Shown here: positions 2,369 to 20,523 of the stretch, piece after piece
Position numbering within the stretch: position 1 is the first letter of the stretch
How the letters are laid out: each line of letters begins with the position of its first letter
Origin: a virus
Length of the DNA stretch: 22,264 nt
IMG/VR virus record: IMGVR_UViG_3300017746_000187
Coordinates: 1-22,264 of that record
Direction: 5' to 3' (one strand)
Notes under the pieces: model-generated
Databases searched by the model: none
Told to the model about the DNA's origin: nothing
Seen by the model: the letters and a program-made list of their open reading frames with translations, nothing else
Translations under genes and position numbers: made by a program

Positions 2369-3355
2369 TTAAAATATTGATGCGGCGTCCCAATTTTGAA
2401 CACCTTTACTATAATTAGTTACTCTATTTGCAAAGAAATCTGTATGTTGTTTTCCACCTGATAAATTATCAAACCAACTCATTCTTTGTACTGCTTCTTG
2501 ATCTATTCCATTAACAATTGCATCATATCCTAGATCGCTCATTTTTGTATTTACTCTGTGTTTAATAAATGATATTAAATCATATTTTGGACATCCCTTT
2601 AAATCTCCCATTTCGTAAACAGTATCAATAAAATCAAGTTCTAATTTTAAAGATAGCTTTGCTGCTTCTTCAATATCAGATCTTAATTCAGGAGTGTCAA
2701 ATTCAGGGTGTTCTTTTAGTAAAGTTCTAAATAACCAACATCCAGCATCTGAATGTAATGATTCATCTCTGATACTCCATTCTACTATTTGACCTACACC
2801 TTTTAGTTTATTATCTAATTTAAAGGATAATAAAACAGCAAAAGATGAAAATAAATTAACTCCTTCTGTAAATGCAGAAAAAATTGCTAATGATTTAGCT
2901 CTTTCATGCCAATTAGGAGTACCATCATGAGAATCTCTAACTTCAGTTAGTGCTTCTATTTTAGCCATAGTTGCCTCATCTTCTAAAAATTCAGCAAAAT
3001 CATCTAAACCTAATTCTTCATTTAATAAAGAATAAGCTTCAGCGTGTATAGTTTCAAAAGCACCAAATGTAACTGCCATTTTAATTACTTCTGGTTTTCT
3101 AAACCATTTTGTAACTAAAGATGACCAATAATCATTTACTACAGTTTCTGTTTGAGCAAAACCTTTTAAAATCGAACCAATAATATTTTTTTCTACATCT
3201 GTTAAATTTTGTTTCCAATCATTAACATCAGACATCATTGGAACTTCTGTATGTAACCAATGTGCTTGTTGTTGTTTCATCCAATAATCATGAGCAACTG
3301 GGTATTCAAATGGTTTATAAACAATACGTTCTTGTAATAAAGATTTTTTTGGCAT
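2369..3355 (-). CDS. nrdB: Class I ribonucleotide reductase, small (beta) subunit NrdB
   Basis: This 328-residue subunit holds the di-metal centre and tyrosyl radical that start catalysis in NrdA. Metal ligands can be assigned by spacing: Glu70, Glu101 and His104 (FETIHAEAY), Glu164 (FTEG), and Glu198 and His201 (RDESLH). Tyr108, four residues after His104, is in the radical-tyrosine position, so this is a tyrosyl-radical enzyme rather than the Phe-containing manganese/iron (class Ic) type. The first ligand is Glu where E. coli has Asp84, as in chlamydial R2. The ATG at 3353-3355 follows an A-rich leader without a Shine-Dalgarno sequence, 17 bases after the helicase stop. nrdA begins one base after this stop, so the two subunits are probably translationally coupled. 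The C-terminal NWDAASIF tail is the expected NrdA-docking end. Confidence 0.96.
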   Translation of the reverse strand: MPKKSLLQERIVYKPFEYPVAHDYWMKQQQAHWLHTEVPMMSDVNDWKQNLTDVEKNIIGSILKGFAQTETVVNDYWSSLVTKWFRKPEVIKMAVTFGAFETIHAEAYSLLNEELGLDDFAEFLEDEATMAKIEALTEVRDSHDGTPNWHERAKSLAIFSAFTEGVNLFSSFAVLLSFKLDNKLKGVGQIVEWSIRDESLHSDAGCWLFRTLLKEHPEFDTPELRSDIEEAAKLSLKLELDFIDTVYEMGDLKGCPKYDLISFIKHRVNTKMSDLGYDAIVNGIDQEAVQRMSWFDNLSGGKQHTDFFANRVTNYSKGVQNWDAASIF

Positions 3356-10365: not shown

Positions 10366-13300
10366 TTATGATAATTTAGTATTTTGTGTATCCCAATCTT
10401 TTTGTGGTTTACCTGGGTTATCATTTTCTGCATTTTCTAATGCTACATCTCTATTAAATTGTACAAAGAAATGAACAGCATCTACATAACCTCCAAAATC
10501 ACCACCCCACATTAATCCAGCTTTTTGTGCTTCAGATACTATACCTTGTGAAATCCACGGGTTTCTTTCTTTCTTTTTCATCCATCTACCTTTTGGATCT
10601 ACAACACTAATGTCAGCCCCCGCAGCATAATTATGAACTGATTTTCCTGGTGCTGCGTTTTTAGGATTTTCTGCTCTTAGTTCTACTGATCGAGAAAATG
10701 GTCTAAATACAGCATTTATATAAATTTTATAATCATTATATCCTCCATTTAACATATTAGTATACCAAGTTCTAAAAGTATTTTGTACGTTTACATTCAT
10801 ATAACTTACAGCAGTTTCTAAAGAAATCTTTTTCCCATAAGTACTACTATTAACAGGAATACCATTTATATCTCTATTATCAAAAAATTCTAAGGGATCA
10901 TCAGTTAAAAGACCAGAAGTATCTGATAGACCACCGGGATCAATTGGTCCTGTATTTGCTGCAACATCTGCTTCACCATCATTAATACTTACAGCTGACA
11001 TATTTGTAAATGGAGTTTTAGGTTTATTTTCAACATCAGGAACAGCTAAAGTACCAATTGAAGTTGACCAATTATTATCACTAATACTATGGTCTACTTT
11101 ATCAATAATAAATTTTAATGCTTCATTATATGCTGGAGGTAGGAATTGTTGTCTTAATGACATACCATTGTAAATTTTAATACCAGACATACCTTCAAAG
11201 GTTATACCTAATTTTATAGGAATAAAACCTGATTTTGGGGAAGGTCTATTAGTTTCAGCAAATATTCTTTCATTTAATAAATTAGCAAACCCATTAAAAC
11301 ATTGATGTCCTTCACTAATAAAATCATCAGACATATTAGTGTATAAAGCATTACGAGTTTTAACTGTAATAGTTTTAAAATCTGATTTTTCAGCATCCAT
11401 TGGAATTTTAGCTTCACCACCAAAGGCTCTTACTAAATAAAGATCATAATTTGAAGCATATTGTTCAGATTCATCATACATATACCTTTGTATAGCTGAT
11501 ATGAATTTTCCTGTAGGTGTTTTTGATACGAAATCTGTTATAAAATCTTTAACTATTAATGCAGCATTTAATCCTTTAGATAAAGTTAAAAATGTATAAT
11601 AAGTAACATTAGCAAATCTTACACCTTTATAAGTTACATTTTTTCTAACATTAATTGCTTTACTAAATTCATCTTGACTATTTCCTAAATTTTGCCCAGA
11701 TTGTAATTCTGCTTCAGGTAGAGAAGTACTTTTTTTACTAAAAACTAAATTTAGTACTTCTCCTCTAACTTTTTCATTAGCTAAACCTCCAAATAAAAAG
11801 TTTGATACTTTTGCACCTGTGGTTTCTTCTCCTTCATCCCAAGCTTTATCTTGTTCTCCTGTTCCTTCATTAGTGTAATCAAAACCAGGGGAATCAATAA
11901 TTGATGGGTTTGTTCTGTCCATTAAACCTATATTCCATTTTGAAAAAGCAGTTGCATCTGTATTTTTAGTTGAACTTCCTTGTGCTGTTGCTCCAATAGA
12001 AATTTGGCTAGAAAGTTCAGGTGTTATATTAGTTTCAAAACTAAAATCAGTAACAAAATTAGAAGAACCAGAAGGACTATAACCAAATATTTCAAATGAA
12101 TCTCTTTTTATTAAACCTAAATTAGCAATTGGATTATTATCAATTATAGTAACAGTAATATCATCTTTCATTATTACTTCTAATTCCATTATATTACCTA
12201 ATGCTTTATTTATACCTCCTACTATTCTTGTTAAAAATTCAAAAAGGTTTAATTCTCCTTTTTTATCTGTTTGTTGTAAAATTTCAGCTATAAATTCAAA
12301 GTTAACATAAATATTCATTACCCTACCATAATAACAATCGCCTTTATTATAGGTAAATTCTTTTAAATCATTTAAATACCCCGGATATTTTAATTCTTCT
12401 AATTGGCTATCTGCTGTTTGGAAAAATTGGGGTTTGATTAAACATACTTTAGGGTCTAATGAAATTAAATTTGGATATGAATTACAAATATTAGATTCTT
12501 CTTGATAATCAAAATCTAATTGTACTTCTGGGTTTGATTTCATTATTAAAGGAGCAATTTTTGTTTGAACTGCTTCCATTAATTTTCCTAAAGTCATATA
12601 ATAATTAAAATTAGGTAAATCAATTGAAGGATAATTATCTGAATTTCTAGCCCATGATAAACCATCATAGTGTTCTCTAGAATGTTCCCATGAAAAATAA
12701 GGACCTTTTACACTTGCATTTACACCTTCACTGCTTCTATCTGCCCATTTAATATCTCTTACTTTTTGATACATAAAATAAGAAATTTGGGAATCTCCAG
12801 CTGTACCTACAATAGCAGAATCTTCAATTTCACCAAGCCCTTTTGCACCTATACCAAAAAATCCTGATTGGCTATCTATATCATCTAATTTTTGTTGGGC
12901 TGATAAAGCTAATACCTTATTTCTTGCACTAATAGATTCAATAACATCTCCTAAAGTTATTAAATCAATAGAAATATCATAAGTTCCATCAGGATTAAAA
13001 CTCCAATCAAAATTTGTTACTTTTCCAAAAAAACCATCATAATTATAGGAACACTTTCTTCTTTTGTCATTAATCTTTTGTAGCATTGATTTTTGGGTTT
13101 CTTTTGCTGTCTTAAAAAATGCATCTTCTATTACTGTAGTACCTACTTTTTGTATATTACCTTCTCCATCTAAGTATTTATCAAACCCCCATTCTAACAT
13201 CATTGTATAACCTAATCTTAGATATAATAACTCTATTAATTCAAATTGAAATTTATTATAAGCTTTTAAAGAAACTTTAGCTTTACGAATAGAACCCCTA

Positions 13301-13848
13301 TTTATACATTCAACACTAGCCTCAATTAATCCAGGTGCTGGTGAAAGACCAAAATCTGAACCACCTAAACCATAAGAATTGTTTGAATTCCAAAGACTAT
13401 TATTTTTAGTAACACCAGATCTTTGATTATATTTTAAAAATTTACCTCCTTCATCAAATACTGCTTCTGATAAAGTATTAAATAAAATACATTTTTCTGC
13501 TAATTGGTTACCTACAAAATTTTCAGTATCTTGAAGACCTATATTTTTTAATCTTTGTATTCCATCTGGTATTCCATCTTTATCAGCATCAATTGCTCCT
13601 GCTTCAAAAACTTTAGTTCCCTCAGCGGCATTAGTTCCAGCGGCTTGTGCTTGAAAATCTGCTTTAGTATTTTCACCAAGTATATAAACAGAAGATGCTA
13701 GTTTTAACCAAGCATTTCTATTATTTAAAAATTGAATTTGTTGTGGGGTCCTTTTATTAAGGTATCCACTTCCATGTGTTTTTTGTCTATTTTGGATTTC
13801 TAAATAAACACCCTCTTCAAATTGTTCCCCAATTATATTTCCAGTCAT
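10366..13848 (-). CDS. Baseplate hub protein with C-terminal M15-type peptidase domain
   Basis: A 1160-residue virion protein. Residues 276-305 (GKVTNFDWSFNPDGTYDIS, then a GDVIES end) resemble hub or tail proteins of T4-like marine phages. Residues 87-96 (DADKDGIPDG) form a DxDxDGxxD loop typical of calcium binding. The middle is long and beta-rich without a motif I recognise. Residues about 1010-1135 form a zinc peptidase domain: SVHNYAAGADIS with His1072 and Asp1079, and DAVHFF with Asp1123 and His1126, the H-x6-D plus D-x-x-H layout of M15 (VanY/endolysin) enzymes that cut peptidoglycan stem peptides. This would open the cell wall during injection, the job done by the lysozyme domain of T4 gp5. 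The C-terminal 25 residues are hydrophilic. The gene lies five bases after the LysM gene and directly abuts the next gene. Confidence 0.85.
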   Translation of the reverse strand: MTGNIIGEQFEEGVYLEIQNRQKTHGSGYLNKRTPQQIQFLNNRNAWLKLASSVYILGENTKADFQAQAAGTNAAEGTKVFEAGAIDADKDGIPDGIQRLKNIGLQDTENFVGNQLAEKCILFNTLSEAVFDEGGKFLKYNQRSGVTKNNSLWNSNNSYGLGGSDFGLSPAPGLIEASVECINRGSIRKAKVSLKAYNKFQFELIELLYLRLGYTMMLEWGFDKYLDGEGNIQKVGTTVIEDAFFKTAKETQKSMLQKINDKRRKCSYNYDGFFGKVTNFDWSFNPDGTYDISIDLITLGDVIESISARNKVLALSAQQKLDDIDSQSGFFGIGAKGLGEIEDSAIVGTAGDSQISYFMYQKVRDIKWADRSSEGVNASVKGPYFSWEHSREHYDGLSWARNSDNYPSIDLPNFNYYMTLGKLMEAVQTKIAPLIMKSNPEVQLDFDYQEESNICNSYPNLISLDPKVCLIKPQFFQTADSQLEELKYPGYLNDLKEFTYNKGDCYYGRVMNIYVNFEFIAEILQQTDKKGELNLFEFLTRIVGGINKALGNIMELEVIMKDDITVTIIDNNPIANLGLIKRDSFEIFGYSPSGSSNFVTDFSFETNITPELSSQISIGATAQGSSTKNTDATAFSKWNIGLMDRTNPSIIDSPGFDYTNEGTGEQDKAWDEGEETTGAKVSNFLFGGLANEKVRGEVLNLVFSKKSTSLPEAELQSGQNLGNSQDEFSKAINVRKNVTYKGVRFANVTYYTFLTLSKGLNAALIVKDFITDFVSKTPTGKFISAIQRYMYDESEQYASNYDLYLVRAFGGEAKIPMDAEKSDFKTITVKTRNALYTNMSDDFISEGHQCFNGFANLLNERIFAETNRPSPKSGFIPIKLGITFEGMSGIKIYNGMSLRQQFLPPAYNEALKFIIDKVDHSISDNNWSTSIGTLAVPDVENKPKTPFTNMSAVSINDGEADVAANTGPIDPGGLSDTSGLLTDDPLEFFDNRDINGIPVNSSTYGKKISLETAVSYMNVNVQNTFRTWYTNMLNGGYNDYKIYINAVFRPFSRSVELRAENPKNAAPGKSVHNYAAGADISVVDPKGRWMKKKERNPWISQGIVSEAQKAGLMWGGDFGGYVDAVHFFVQFNRDVALENAENDNPGKPQKDWDTQNTKLS

Positions 13849-16473: not shown

Positions 16474-18876
16474 TTATTGAACTGAATATAAACCTACTGG
16501 TGATATTTGAGGTTTTTTATTATTTTGTTGTACTAATGTAGCTAATAAGGCATTTGTTTTACTATTATCATTCATTGCTACTGTTCCTGCTGGTGAAGAA
16601 ACAACATCATTACCCCTAGGAAATAAATTAGTTCCGGCAATAATAGTATCTTTGTTATTTAAAGAAATTGCACCTTCAGGTCCAAATAAAGTTCTATCAC
16701 CATAACCTGGTCTTCTTGTTGGGGATGAAACCATATCATCTGCAGTAGCTAATCTTTTTAGCATACCCGCCCCTGCTAATGTAGCTGCAGTTGCTAAGGC
16801 AAACCCAGCTGGTCCCATAAATGAGAAATTTTTATAGGCATTACTTGCTATATCAACAATAGCAGTTGCAATCGATTTTGCAAACACAAGTCCTAAAATT
16901 GTAACAATACCACCTAATACTGGTAATATTAAAGTTAATCCATCTAACATTAATTTTACAGCAGCTGCAATACCATTAAAAACAGGAAGTAAAATATTAA
17001 CAACTGGTTCAACAATTTCCATTACTACACCTGCAATACCCATAAAAGAATCTAGTACTTTTTTAATTGTTTTTTCAAATCTTTCTGATACACTAGCTTG
17101 GTCTTCTAAAGTCGATAATCCATCTTTAGCAATTTCTTTTTGGGCTTGAGCTAAACCAACTTCTTCTATTCTTTTATCTAATATAGCTTGCCTTCTTTCT
17201 GCTTCTTCTCCTGTTGCTCCCGCTAATTGTTCTTGAACAAATAAAGTTTGAGCAATATCTTCTCTACTCATTCCTAAAGATTTAGCTAAAGCATCTTGTT
17301 GGATTCTATTCATTTTAGAAAATTCAGCTGATGATCCAACTTGTGTTGATATTTCTTTTGCTAAAGTTGCTAAATCATTATCTAAAGCTGCTTGTCTTGC
17401 TTTTTCTAAATTAATATCTTTACCTAATAATAATTCAGCTTCTAATTCATTAGCAATAGAACTTTCAAAATCAAGTAAACTATCGGCTATTGCTTCTACT
17501 TGATCTAATTCCATACCTAATGCCTTTGCTGAAGCAACAGCATCAGCAATTAAAGCTGGATTTTTCCCAAATGATAGAGTTGTTGCAGCTGAAACATTAG
17601 CTATATCTTTTAATAATTCTTTTTCATTAAGTAGTACACCATTTTGCATTGCTGAAACTTTAGCTTGAGCTAAAAATTCTCCTGTGTTTTCTTTTAAAGA
17701 TTGTCCATTTGCTAAAGTTAATGATTGGATACCCATTAACTCTTCATTAGTAAAACCAGCTGCTTCTCTTAATTTAGTAAACGTAATTAAATCTTCTTGA
17801 TTCAACATTACATTAGTACCTAATGTTTTATTAATTTCTTGTAAGCTTTCTAATAACCCTTGAGAACTAACTAATGAACTTTTTAATTCACCAGAAGATA
17901 AACTTGCAAAAGATCTTTGTAAGTCTCTTGCTTCACCCACTGTCATATTTAAATTCTTAGCAACTTCCCCCGATGTTTTATCTAACATCGTTACTGTTTT
18001 TACAATAGCAGTAAAAACTGCAGCCGCAATATTAGCTGGTTTAAAGGCATTAAGTAATTGTGCACCTAATACTTTAGCACCTGCAGCCATACCAGCTAAT
18101 CCACTACCAGTTTTCATAGTAGCTTCCTTAGCAGCCTCTAAAGCTTCTTCAGCATCTATAACATCACCAAGAAGGGGTATTTTAGAAATACCTTTTAAAA
18201 CACCACCAAAAATTCCTAGCTTACTTTCTGCATCTTCAATTGCTTTCTTTTGTGCTAATCTTTTTTTATTTTCTTCTTCTAATAATTTTAAGTTTTGTTC
18301 AGTAAATAAAGCTTGTTGTTGAGCAGTTGATAAACCTTCTACTTGTCTATCTAGAGTAGCATTTCTTGTTTTTAATTCTTTTTCAATTGATGATAATCTT
18401 TTTTCATCAAATTTTTCTCCTCCTTCAGCAGCTTCAAGAATAGCTTCTCTTTCCTTTTGCAACTTAGACATATTAGTTAAAGTTGCTTTTACATTAGCTA
18501 CCTCTGCTCTTCCCTGTTTTCCAATATTAGTTCTAAGACTATTTTTTACTTTTTCAGCTTTAAGAATTGCTTCTTCATTTGCTAAAATTTGTTTATCTAA
18601 AGATTTAATATCATTTAAACCAGTTTTTTGGTTTAAAATTTCTTTGTTAATTTTTTTATTTACACTAAGGAGATTTGAATCAAATTGATTAACTTTAGAT
18701 TTGATTCCAACAGATTCTTTTAAAACTTCAATTATACCTGAAGAAATACCAAGATCATCTTCTTTTACAGCATTACTCCTTTGACGAGCAGCAGTTAGTT
18801 CTTTTTCAAGTCTAATTTCTTCTTGTTTGGCAGCATTAATTTGGTCCTGCCTTTTTAATTCTTCTTTTGAAGCCAT
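16474..18876 (-). CDS. Tail tape measure protein
   Basis: An 800-residue protein expected to set tail length and pass into the cell envelope on injection (T4 gp29 role). Residues 1-40 and about 90-220 are charged coiled-coil sequence rich in Lys, Glu, Gln and Leu. The middle (about 240-300) is Ala/Gly-rich, followed by long helical stretches. A hydrophobic region near 625-700 (LLPVLGGIVTILGLVFAKSI, then ALATAATLAGAGML) contains likely membrane-spanning helices, typical of tape measures. The C-terminus carries LFGPEGAISLNNKDTIIAG, a segment I recall near the end of tape measure proteins of marine T4-like phages. Position after gp26/gp51-like chaperones and before the baseplate operon supports the call. 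At about 1.5 angstrom per residue, a tail near 120 nm is predicted (inference). Confidence 0.88.
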   Translation of the reverse strand: MASKEELKRQDQINAAKQEEIRLEKELTAARQRSNAVKEDDLGISSGIIEVLKESVGIKSKVNQFDSNLLSVNKKINKEILNQKTGLNDIKSLDKQILANEEAILKAEKVKNSLRTNIGKQGRAEVANVKATLTNMSKLQKEREAILEAAEGGEKFDEKRLSSIEKELKTRNATLDRQVEGLSTAQQQALFTEQNLKLLEEENKKRLAQKKAIEDAESKLGIFGGVLKGISKIPLLGDVIDAEEALEAAKEATMKTGSGLAGMAAGAKVLGAQLLNAFKPANIAAAVFTAIVKTVTMLDKTSGEVAKNLNMTVGEARDLQRSFASLSSGELKSSLVSSQGLLESLQEINKTLGTNVMLNQEDLITFTKLREAAGFTNEELMGIQSLTLANGQSLKENTGEFLAQAKVSAMQNGVLLNEKELLKDIANVSAATTLSFGKNPALIADAVASAKALGMELDQVEAIADSLLDFESSIANELEAELLLGKDINLEKARQAALDNDLATLAKEISTQVGSSAEFSKMNRIQQDALAKSLGMSREDIAQTLFVQEQLAGATGEEAERRQAILDKRIEEVGLAQAQKEIAKDGLSTLEDQASVSERFEKTIKKVLDSFMGIAGVVMEIVEPVVNILLPVFNGIAAAVKLMLDGLTLILPVLGGIVTILGLVFAKSIATAIVDIASNAYKNFSFMGPAGFALATAATLAGAGMLKRLATADDMVSSPTRRPGYGDRTLFGPEGAISLNNKDTIIAGTNLFPRGNDVVSSPAGTVAMNDNSKTNALLATLVQQNNKKPQISPVGLYSVQ

Positions 18877-18900: not shown

Positions 18901-19275
18901 CTATTTAAAACTACTTTTACCTTTGAATTTTTTAAGGTTTTGTTCTGCGGTTTTGTATTGGTGGGAAGTTTTAGCAAATTCTGGGGCATTTACTTTACCA
19001 TCTGAGGAAACTAATGTTTGTTTACCTTTACCCTCGGATGCTTCTTTTTGTTTTTTATTTTCTTCTTTATAGTAATTATCAATTTCAGAAAATGTAAATT
19101 TTCTTAACCAAATCGGCATATTATAAATGGTTTCAAAGTCATAACCACCTTTACCGTGAAATAAAATATTATGGATTTGAGTAAATAAACTCTTCCTGAC
19201 TAGGGGTGCTGCCTTAGGCGTCAGGCCAAAAAAAGTTAAGCCCAATGGGCACTGCGACCTCCTCCCCGCTATCAA
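18901..19275 (-). CDS. gp51: gp51-like hub assembly protein, probably made as a frameshift extension of the gp26-like protein
   Basis: The open frame spans 124 codons after a TAG stop. The first possible start is TTG at 19273-19275, and the first 16 residues are only an alternate reading of the gp26-like 3' end. The recognisable part starts after the seven-T run: SLFTQIHNILFHGKGGYDF, then ETIYNMPIWLRKFTFSEI, similar to what I recall of gp51/hub-assembly proteins of T4-like marine phages. The first in-frame ATG is the Met of YNMPIW, inside this conserved part, so normal initiation would truncate it. Every other complete gene here has an ATG start. The tail is Lys-rich. Most likely it is expressed by +1 (or -2) slippage on TTT TTT T at 19234-19228, giving a gp26-gp51 fusion of about 346-347 residues. 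An independent TTG start is the alternative. Confidence 0.72.
   Translation of the reverse strand: MIAGRRSQCPLGLTFFGLTPKAAPLVRKSLFTQIHNILFHGKGGYDFETIYNMPIWLRKFTFSEIDNYYKEENKKQKEASEGKGKQTLVSSDGKVNAPEFAKTSHQYKTAEQNLKKFKGKSSFK
19211..19267 (-). promoter_or_regulatory. Probable programmed ribosomal frameshift site
   Basis: In the gp26-like frame the codons are AAC TTT TTT TGG CCT GAC GCC TAA, with seven T at 19234-19228 and the stop at 19216-19214. Slipping +1 (or -2) on the T run joins the gp51-like frame. Just upstream are a perfect hairpin GCCC-ATT-GGGC (19250-19240) and a Shine-Dalgarno-like GGGGAGGAGGT (19267-19257), 22 bases before the run. Downstream GGCCTGACGCC and GCCTAAGGC can form small stems. 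G+C is 41 of 70 bases at 19201-19270, against 16 of 70 at 19391-19460 in the same gene. Confidence 0.6.
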
Positions 19276-19942
19276 CTACATAAGTTAAGTCAATATCTGG
19301 CTGTGTTTTTTTAACATGCTCTCTAAAAGCACGAGAATCACGAGCCAATAAATAATTATCTACAAATTCTCTAATATCTTTTTTTTCTTCATTTCCATCT
19401 ATTGATAGAATCATATTTTTTAATCTAGTAGTTAATTCAGGAGATGAATCTTTATTAACTTTTTTTAACCCATTAATTTCTCTATCAATTGCTTTTTCAT
19501 CTTTTCCAGTAAGTAATTTATAAGTTAATACTGAACTGTTAGAAGGTAAAGTATAAGAAAACTCATTTTTACCTTGTTCTATAGAGGATTCATCAAATGG
19601 TTTATTTTCTAAAGTACTTAAATCAATAGTGTAATTACTACTACCTATTGTTACTTCATAATCTTTTCCATATCCTAAAATTCTACATCCTACTAATAAA
19701 GCATTTTTATCACCTACTACTAAATCATCAATATTAATTTTTGAATTAATAATTAATGATTTTAATAATTTATCTAATACAATACCTTTTTGGATATATG
19801 ATTGATTAGTTAATATATCTTCTTGTTTAGCAGTCATATATTTCATTTCTACTTTCCCAGAAGATAATGGGTTTTCTTTTGGATATACTTTTCCTTTTGA
19901 AGGTAAGTCTATCTCTTCAGTGGGGAATTTAAAATCAGCCAT
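19214..19942 (-). CDS. gp26: Baseplate hub assembly chaperone, T4 gp26-like
   Basis: A 242-residue protein of the T4 gp26/baseplate chaperone family. Family-type features are an N-terminal FPTEEIDLPSKGKVYPKENP, the segment MKYMTAKQEDILTN (about 34-47), a Cys-containing GCRILGYGKDYEV, and a C-terminal DSRAFREHVKKTQPDI plus VPIGLNFFWPDA end. In T4, gp26 helps assemble the hub; by position before the tape measure gene it also corresponds to the G-type tail chaperones of other phages, which are extended by frameshifting. ATG at 19940-19942 lies in a 39-base AT-rich leader just after a terminator, so it should have its own promoter, although no clear box is visible there. The last 20 codons use GGG, GAG, GTC, CCC and GCC, unlike the A/T-ending codons of the rest, pointing to selection on the nucleotide sequence at the frameshift site. 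Confidence 0.86.
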   Translation of the reverse strand: MADFKFPTEEIDLPSKGKVYPKENPLSSGKVEMKYMTAKQEDILTNQSYIQKGIVLDKLLKSLIINSKINIDDLVVGDKNALLVGCRILGYGKDYEVTIGSSNYTIDLSTLENKPFDESSIEQGKNEFSYTLPSNSSVLTYKLLTGKDEKAIDREINGLKKVNKDSSPELTTRLKNMILSIDGNEEKKDIREFVDNYLLARDSRAFREHVKKTQPDIDLTYVVDSGEEVAVPIGLNFFWPDA

Positions 19943-20034: not shown

Positions 20035-20523
20035 TTAGAAGTTTAAGATACAATAATCAGGTTGTACGGTTAATGATAATTCTTGCGCAGCATTTTCATT
20101 ATCCCAGTTATAATCACCAAATCCAGCTTCTGTAATTAAAGCTCCTTTAATAATCCATTCAGAAACAATATCACCTACTGGTCCTAATACATTAAATGTA
20201 AGATCTTTTTTATAAAAATCACTGTATCCATCTCTACCAGTTACTGATTCGTGATGTAATCTAACCCATTCCATTACCGCTTGAGCTCCTGACGGTGTAA
20301 TAGGATCAAATAATGTCATTGAAACTGTATTCCAAAGAGTTTTTCCTTTTACGTATCTTGCAACGTTGATGTGGTTTAATTGAACTGTACCTTGTGTTAG
20401 TGAAACAGCTCCAACTCCTTTAATCTGGTAAGAAGGAATTCCATCAACATATAAGATAAATCTATTTTGTTGCTTTGGCTCAAAAGCTGTGTAAAATATT
20501 TCGTTTGGGTCTAATATTGCCAT
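20035..20523 (-). CDS. gp19: Tail tube protein, T4 gp19 family
   Basis: A 162-residue major tail protein that forms the inner tube through which DNA passes. The family pattern is clear: an N-terminal NRFILYVDGIPSYQIKGVGA, QGTVQLNHINVARYVKGK, WNTVSMTLFDPITPSGAQAV, WVRLHHESVTGRDGYSDFYK, and a C-terminal strand set EWIIKGALITEAGFGDYNW with ELSLTVQPDYCIL. Length equals T4 gp19 (163 residues). The start ATG at 20521-20523 is preceded by an A/T-rich 47-base leader with an ATATTTATAA box. It follows the sheath gene as in T4, and a terminator comes right after it, so sheath and tube are probably expressed to high level from common or adjacent transcripts. Confidence 0.95.
   Translation of the reverse strand: MAILDPNEIFYTAFEPKQQNRFILYVDGIPSYQIKGVGAVSLTQGTVQLNHINVARYVKGKTLWNTVSMTLFDPITPSGAQAVMEWVRLHHESVTGRDGYSDFYKKDLTFNVLGPVGDIVSEWIIKGALITEAGFGDYNWDNENAAQELSLTVQPDYCILNF

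Follow-up and report, generated by a model that had tools for sequence, protein, structure and literature searches.

The 3' end of the gp26-like gene in this viral DNA raises the question of how the reading frame that overlaps it is translated. The window, by which we mean the whole stretch of 22,264 nucleotides analysed (IMG/VR record IMGVR_UViG_3300017746_000187), carries in order, all on the minus strand, a tail tube gene (20035..20523; phrog_4542 tail tube, E=4.1e-21), a pair of overlapping ORFs and a long ORF of 800 residues (16474..18876) in the tape-measure position; the equivalent position in Flavobacterium phage immuto is annotated as tape measure. ORF1 (19214..19942) encodes 242 residues from an ATG to a TAA at 19214-19216 and ends ...CCC ATT GGG CTT AAC TTT TTT TGG CCT GAC GCC TAA, which from AAC onwards is as the original prediction described it, save that 11 bases, not 12, separate the T run from the stop. 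The frame of ORF2 is open from 19275 down to 18901 and lies in +1 relative to ORF1. It had been said to have no ATG before its conserved part, and this is correct; there are TTG codons at 19275 and 19245, neither of which is conserved in relatives. This +1 relation, the absent starts, a conserved slip site, a GGAGG and a spacer hairpin can all be read directly from the letters. We consider it highly probable that together they mark a programmed +1 ribosomal frameshift in a T4-like tail assembly chaperone gene, giving a short TAC-N and a long TAC-NC, the equivalents of lambda G and GT.

The strongest support for this reading comes from relatives. Protein searches of viral contigs gave 74 distinct homologous loci, immuto included. 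ORF2 is in +1 relative to ORF1 in all 74, the sequence TTT[T/C]TTTGG is present in all 74, and 69 of the 74 have no ATG in the ORF2 frame ahead of the conserved part, so the alignment of homologues that had been proposed as a check comes out in favour of the prediction. In 39 of the 74 there is no ATG, GTG or TTG in this stretch, and in 21 an ORF2-frame stop falls within 6 nt of the T run. A DNA motif search of viral contigs (GGAGG-N23-TTYYTTTGGCCTGA) yielded at least 78 new loci; all of those listed are gp26-like (33-74% identity) and have a +1 ORF2 that stays open for 51 codons or more, or as far as the contig reaches. Because these loci had been selected by the motif, a divergent zinc-ribbon subfamily was sampled via protein similarity to one of them, and ORF2 is again in +1 in 25/25 loci. 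The same relation occurs in phages Mel-JY01, SP-15, LIS04, GXN1 and LR756508. On sequence grounds, the +1 relation in 74/74, 25/25 and 78/78 listed homologues means that the overlap is neither chance nor assembly error, and the fusion of gp26-like and gp51-like tail chaperones by frameshifting, as first proposed, is strongly supported. ORF2 itself evolves as a protein, since 59% of its differences are at codon position 3 and none of 72 loci has an internal stop. The locus thus has what characterises lambda G/GT: an overlapping pair between the tube and tape measure genes, a fixed frame, a site prone to slipping and an ORF2 that lacks a start of its own.

Evidence for the putative chaperone role comes from homology and fold. 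ORF1 matches phrog_150 'baseplate hub' (E=9.7e-7). The ORF1 and ORF2 parts were folded separately as plain translations; the AlphaFold model of ORF1 (pLDDT 89) resembles the baseplate hub proteins of T4-type phages (best E 1e-19), with a Foldseek match to the SP-15 baseplate hub subunit at TM 0.81 and a weak match to the HK97 tail assembly chaperone 2ob9 (prob 0.35). The ORF2 model is helical (pLDDT 72), and a fold search with this low-confidence model returned nothing significant. Against PF12322, ORF1 of the window scores 18.3 bits, below the Pfam gathering cut-off of 24.5, and its relatives L107, L110 and L112 score 56-100 bits. Direct comparison of the ORF1 profile with T4 gp26 or the cyanophage fusion gave no signal; ORF1 is connected with T4 gp26 indirectly, by phrog_150, by intermediate phages and by the fold search. 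PF12322 is matched along almost all of its length by T4 gp26 (216 bits) and by T4 gp51 (178 bits), and gp51 has an extra C-terminal domain (phrog_634) matching the cyanophage ORF2 family; T4 therefore encodes the short and the long chaperone separately, in two genes. This agrees with the identification of gp26/gp51 as T4-like tail chaperones by Vladimirov, Gautam and Davidson in 2022, as represented in PMC12846349 and PMC10885494. The earlier statement that gp26 and gp51 are separate in T4 is right in that they are two genes on opposite strands, but gp51 is not merely the C-terminal part. Elsewhere in the window, the C-terminus of a 1160-residue protein (10366-13848, minus strand) resembles, by eye only, a VanY-type peptidase fused to a hub-like protein.

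We suggest that most ribosomes would stop at the ORF1 TAA and release TAC-N. A minority, with UUU (19234-19232) in the E site, peptidyl-tRNA on the second UUU (19231-19229) in the P site and UGG (19228-19226) waiting in the A site, would slip one base forward, re-pairing from UUU to UUU, or from CUU to UUU in some relatives. The P-site tRNA-Phe would then sit on UUU 19230-19228, and GGC (19227-19225) followed by CTG and ACG would begin the post-slip ORF2 (18901..19227, minus strand), a T-like C-terminal domain of 108 codons plus TAG. The predicted product is a TAC-NC of 346 residues with the junction ...PIGLNFF/GLTPK..., the stroke marking the slip. By analogy with lambda, many short copies may coat the tape measure protein and a few long ones recruit tube subunits. 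How far the ORF1 stop lies from the slip codons varies from locus to locus, and that stop never occupies the A site when the slip would occur; the slip therefore needs no stop codon. Both the occurrence and the efficiency of frameshifting we infer from these features.

The most interesting part of the locus lies upstream of the slip site, in a composite 5' element whose role as a stimulator is putative. The overlap block had been noted for its G+C content, and it is the G+C-richest 70-mer of the window (41/70 at 19198-19267); only 7 of 22,194 such 70-mers reach at least 41/70, all of them overlapping this block, and the rest of ORF1 has 25.5%. The GGGGAGGAGGT stretch and the GCCC-ATT-GGGC hairpin (19240..19250, minus strand) picked out within the block are both present and both have conserved counterparts in relatives; TTTTTTTGGCC is found once in the window, with 0.03 expected. 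The GGAGG of the Shine-Dalgarno-like element GGAGGAGG (19258..19265, minus strand) ends 23 nt upstream of the T run. This distance is exactly 23 nt in 56 of the 74 loci and 26 nt in 8; GGAGG is absent from 9 and is therefore not strictly required. The slip site and GGAGG are precisely where codon choice in ORF1 becomes extreme. The adjacent GAG GAG codons upstream of the slip (61/62 and 64/64 against a background of 10%) rank, together with GAC after the slip, as the three most anomalous codons of ORF1, and they sit where ORF2 is not translated. In the zinc-ribbon subfamily GGAGG stands at exactly 23 nt in 23/25 loci, mostly written not as GAG GAG but as TCG GAG (Ser-Glu), TCG making up 11% of the subfamily's Ser codons. 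As rare codons preserve GGAGG in two amino-acid contexts, it is the nucleotides and not the amino acids that are kept.

Between GGAGG and the slip site the spacer folds into hairpins that differ in sequence, GCCC/GGGC here and GGCC/GGCC, ATGCC/GGCAT, GCTCCC/GGGAGC or ACCG/CGGT elsewhere. As a control, 60 shuffles were made in which a codon could trade places only with codons for the same amino acid in the same column; none was as stable as the real spacers (mean energy -4.86 versus -3.24, sd 0.16). The zinc-ribbon subfamily behaves in the same way (-6.44 versus -5.06, sd 0.31; 0/60), and in a third subfamily of seven sequences the difference is not significant. The evidence that the hairpins are more stable than chance would have them is good but not final, as related sequences can inflate the contrast. 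A possible outer stem with GGAGGAGG in its loop (19251..19272, minus strand) is weak in the window and clearer in a sister subclade, the one subclade in which it scores for covariation (0.342, against at most 0.188 when slid); it was rejected as a group-wide feature because it is absent in the zinc-ribbon subfamily. No conserved RNA structure was found 3' of the site (mean z 0.08 over 45 loci), and a search of Rfam gave no match.

The presence of a perfect Shine-Dalgarno core within a coding region is set against its absence where genes begin: no Shine-Dalgarno-like 4-mer was found at any of the 74 ORF1 starts or at the starts of the 16 window genes. This is as expected for phages of Bacteroidia, the host class we infer here, whose ribosomes mostly ignore Shine-Dalgarno sequences (PMC9976891). 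A gene for ribosomal protein bS21, which could change Shine-Dalgarno use, was not found in immuto or in the tested window-group contigs, which are mostly fragments. Phages Melnitz-3 and Mel-JY01 (L227, L228) and LR756508 (169725-169877) do encode bS21.

We propose the composite element, made up of GGAGG, the slip site 23 nt from it and the hairpin in between, as the probable stimulator of the slip. In the window 5 nt separate the hairpin from the T run that follows, which puts the hairpin's end about 8 nt upstream of the P-site codon; it would for this reason refold while the message emerges from the ribosome, and the refolding, perhaps aided by pairing of GGAGG with 16S rRNA, could pull the mRNA 5'-ward. 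The prfB gene of Flavobacterium johnsoniae retains AGGAGGU beside its CUU-U site (PMC8710568), so pairing with rRNA during elongation is possible in such hosts. Whether GGAGG and the hairpin at their fixed 23 nt amount to a new kind of 5' stimulator of +1 frameshifting, in hosts whose ribosomes largely ignore Shine-Dalgarno sequences, with the message drawn backwards through the ribosome as the RNA refolds or pairs with rRNA where it exits, we regard as evenly balanced. Shine-Dalgarno stimulators are known at 3 nt (+1) or 9-14 nt (-1) from the site (PMC5009743), and a distance of 23 nt fits neither range unless the hairpin shortens it. This mismatch, together with the nine loci without GGAGG, is what speaks for GGAGG and the hairpin serving some other purpose, such as pausing for chaperone folding or the binding of a regulator, which would leave the frameshift itself unaffected. 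Such a role is a possibility of some weight, though the less likely one to our mind: the spacing to the slip site is fixed across subfamilies and the spacer folds, both of which argue for a stimulator.

The direction of the slip can be judged from its variants. The site TTT TTT TGG (19226..19234, minus strand) is TTT TTT TGG in 71 and TTT CTT TGG in 3 of the 74 loci; TTCTTTTGG replaces it in a related subfamily. TTC TTT TGG is used in the subfamily about 40% identical to phage LR756508, and TTC TTT CGT in phage GXN1; the conserved core is UU[U/C] [U/C]UU UGG CC. The original prediction allowed a +1 or a -2 slip. Taken alone, the T run of the window would equally permit the P-site tRNA-Phe to move back two bases, as reported for phage Mu, with the product ...NFFFGLT.... 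Across the relatives a -2 shift becomes improbable, because in the TTC TTT TGG members, and likewise in GXN1, it would place tRNA-Phe on UCU, whereas re-pairing in +1 is good in every variant (YUU to UUU, UUU to UUC). The variants UUC UUU UGG and UUU CUU UGG narrow the predicted shift to +1. ORF2 is in +1 in all group members, not in the -1 frame served by a canonical X XXY YYZ heptamer, and UUU UUU UGG, UUU CUU UGG and UUC UUU UGG all allow a YUU-U slip in the P site of the RF2 type. The stretch GGCCTGACG (19219..19227, minus strand) codes for WPD in frame 0 and GLT in +1. Directly after the slip CCT is used in 74/74 loci (background 47%) and GAC in 72/73 (background 12%), because GGCCTGAC is conserved there and is coded in both frames.

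A +1 frameshift would be unnecessary if ORF2 were a separate gene begun internally at TTG, GTG or the CTG within GGCCTGAC, with the help of GGAGG. The perfect Shine-Dalgarno core could be taken this way, the annotation of T4 gene 26 includes an internal start in the same frame (26'), and a GTG follows GGAGG by about 5 nt in 22 of the 74 loci, though in the ORF1 frame. A start at the GTG/ATA that follows GGAGG was considered and rejected, as the codon is not conserved. We hold internal initiation to be very unlikely, since the ORF2 frame has no conserved start and in 39/74 loci none at all, GGAGG is some 30 nt from the CTG, the window genes make no use of Shine-Dalgarno sequences (0/16), and separate starts would leave the frame relation unfixed. 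That such a start can arise in evolution is seen in the related loci L212 and L216 (about 3190-3260), where the T run is interrupted and ORF2 lies in another frame, with an ATG and a leader of its own. An arrangement of this kind was originally held to speak against a frameshift. In these two loci it appears from their sequences to be a loss of the frameshift with a separate ATG and a new leader in its place; L212 and L216 can be taken as natural controls for what the slip site does. Transcriptional slippage, in which RNA polymerase would drop or add a U at the T run for ribosomes to read normally, has in its favour the seven consecutive T of most members, but is scarcely credible, as the TTTCTTTGG, TTCTTTTGG and TTCTTTCGT members hold the +1 relation with T runs of only 3-4 and a GGAGG at fixed distance better fits a ribosomal signal.

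The proposed +1 ribosomal frameshift would carry the frameshifting of tail chaperones over into +1 in a large, uncultured group of T4-like phages. The two-version chaperone strategy is already known, as are T4 gp26/gp51 as chaperones. Frameshifting also has a precedent in T4-type settings: -1 slips on T runs in T4-like phages are attributed to the 2022 paper by those who cite it. As far as checked, and with that paper known to us through citing papers, what is new is the +1 version and the composite 5' element. The signal is very specific (all of the at least 78 motif matches listed are in a gp26-like gene) and offers a natural system in which to study the way RNA upstream of a slip site drives ribosomes forward. 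There is also a consequence for annotation, in that short genes called 'gp51' or hypothetical downstream of gp26 in such phages look like the C-terminal remainder of a fusion. Those annotated in immuto, SP-15, Mel-JY01, Melnitz-3 and P-HM1 (L002 4839-4949, L112 3321-3440, L106 4776-5012, L114 3256-3399, L224 3220-3381) probably represent incomplete calls of the C-terminal domain reached by the frameshift.

Among known systems, lambda G/GT (Xu et al. 2004; PMC5009743) shares the overlapping ORFs between tube and tape measure genes and the short and long products with a common N-terminus, but shifts by -1 and not +1, at another slip site, with a plain heptamer in place of a 5' signal. Phage 0305phi8-36 (PMC2147016) has a G/GT pair without frameshift, as do T4 and apparently L212/L216, whereas the window keeps it. 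The closest likeness in mechanism is to prfB (RF2) of F. johnsoniae (AGGAGGU AU CUU UGA C; PMC8710568), in which a YUU-U P-site slip to UUU in +1 also has a perfect Shine-Dalgarno core upstream, in what is probably the same host class. The differences are that GGAGG ends 26 nt from the P-site codon here and about 3 nt in prfB, that UGG and not a stop occupies the A site, and that a hairpin fills the spacer. In the bypassing of T4 gene 60 (PMC5009743) a stem-loop 5' of the take-off codon is likewise proposed to pull exiting mRNA, though over 50 bases and not one, and in an unrelated sequence and gene.

The T4-like phages themselves provide the last comparison. The T4 proteins belong to a homologous family, and T4 is listed as an exception to the tail chaperone frameshift in the review PMC5009743; its two genes on opposite strands are replaced here by one frameshifted pair. 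In the accounts available to us, Kyanoviridae and others have the same two domains fused. Cyanophage 'gp51' has been noted to be without its first ~200 residues (PMC3037559), a shortening that the present reading accounts for: these proteins look like the -1 frame parts of a fusion. Many -1 members among the cyanophage-like loci L170-L195 combine a U UUU UUC heptamer with an ATG 5 nt past the ORF1 stop, and in them frameshift and separate start may coexist. In L114-L197, in the stretch 10-20 nt before the T run, GAGGGG or GAAGGA often stands about 8 nt ahead of the cyanophage -1 site, which is reminiscent of Shine-Dalgarno stimulation of the dnaX type. ORF1 ends Phe-Phe in the T4-like loci too, and the relation is -1 in 58/58 distinct cyanophage-like loci, with a U UUU UUN heptamer in those that were parsed, whereas the window group is +1 with YUU UGG; within a single protein family, then, the slip has switched direction while staying at its Phe-Phe position.
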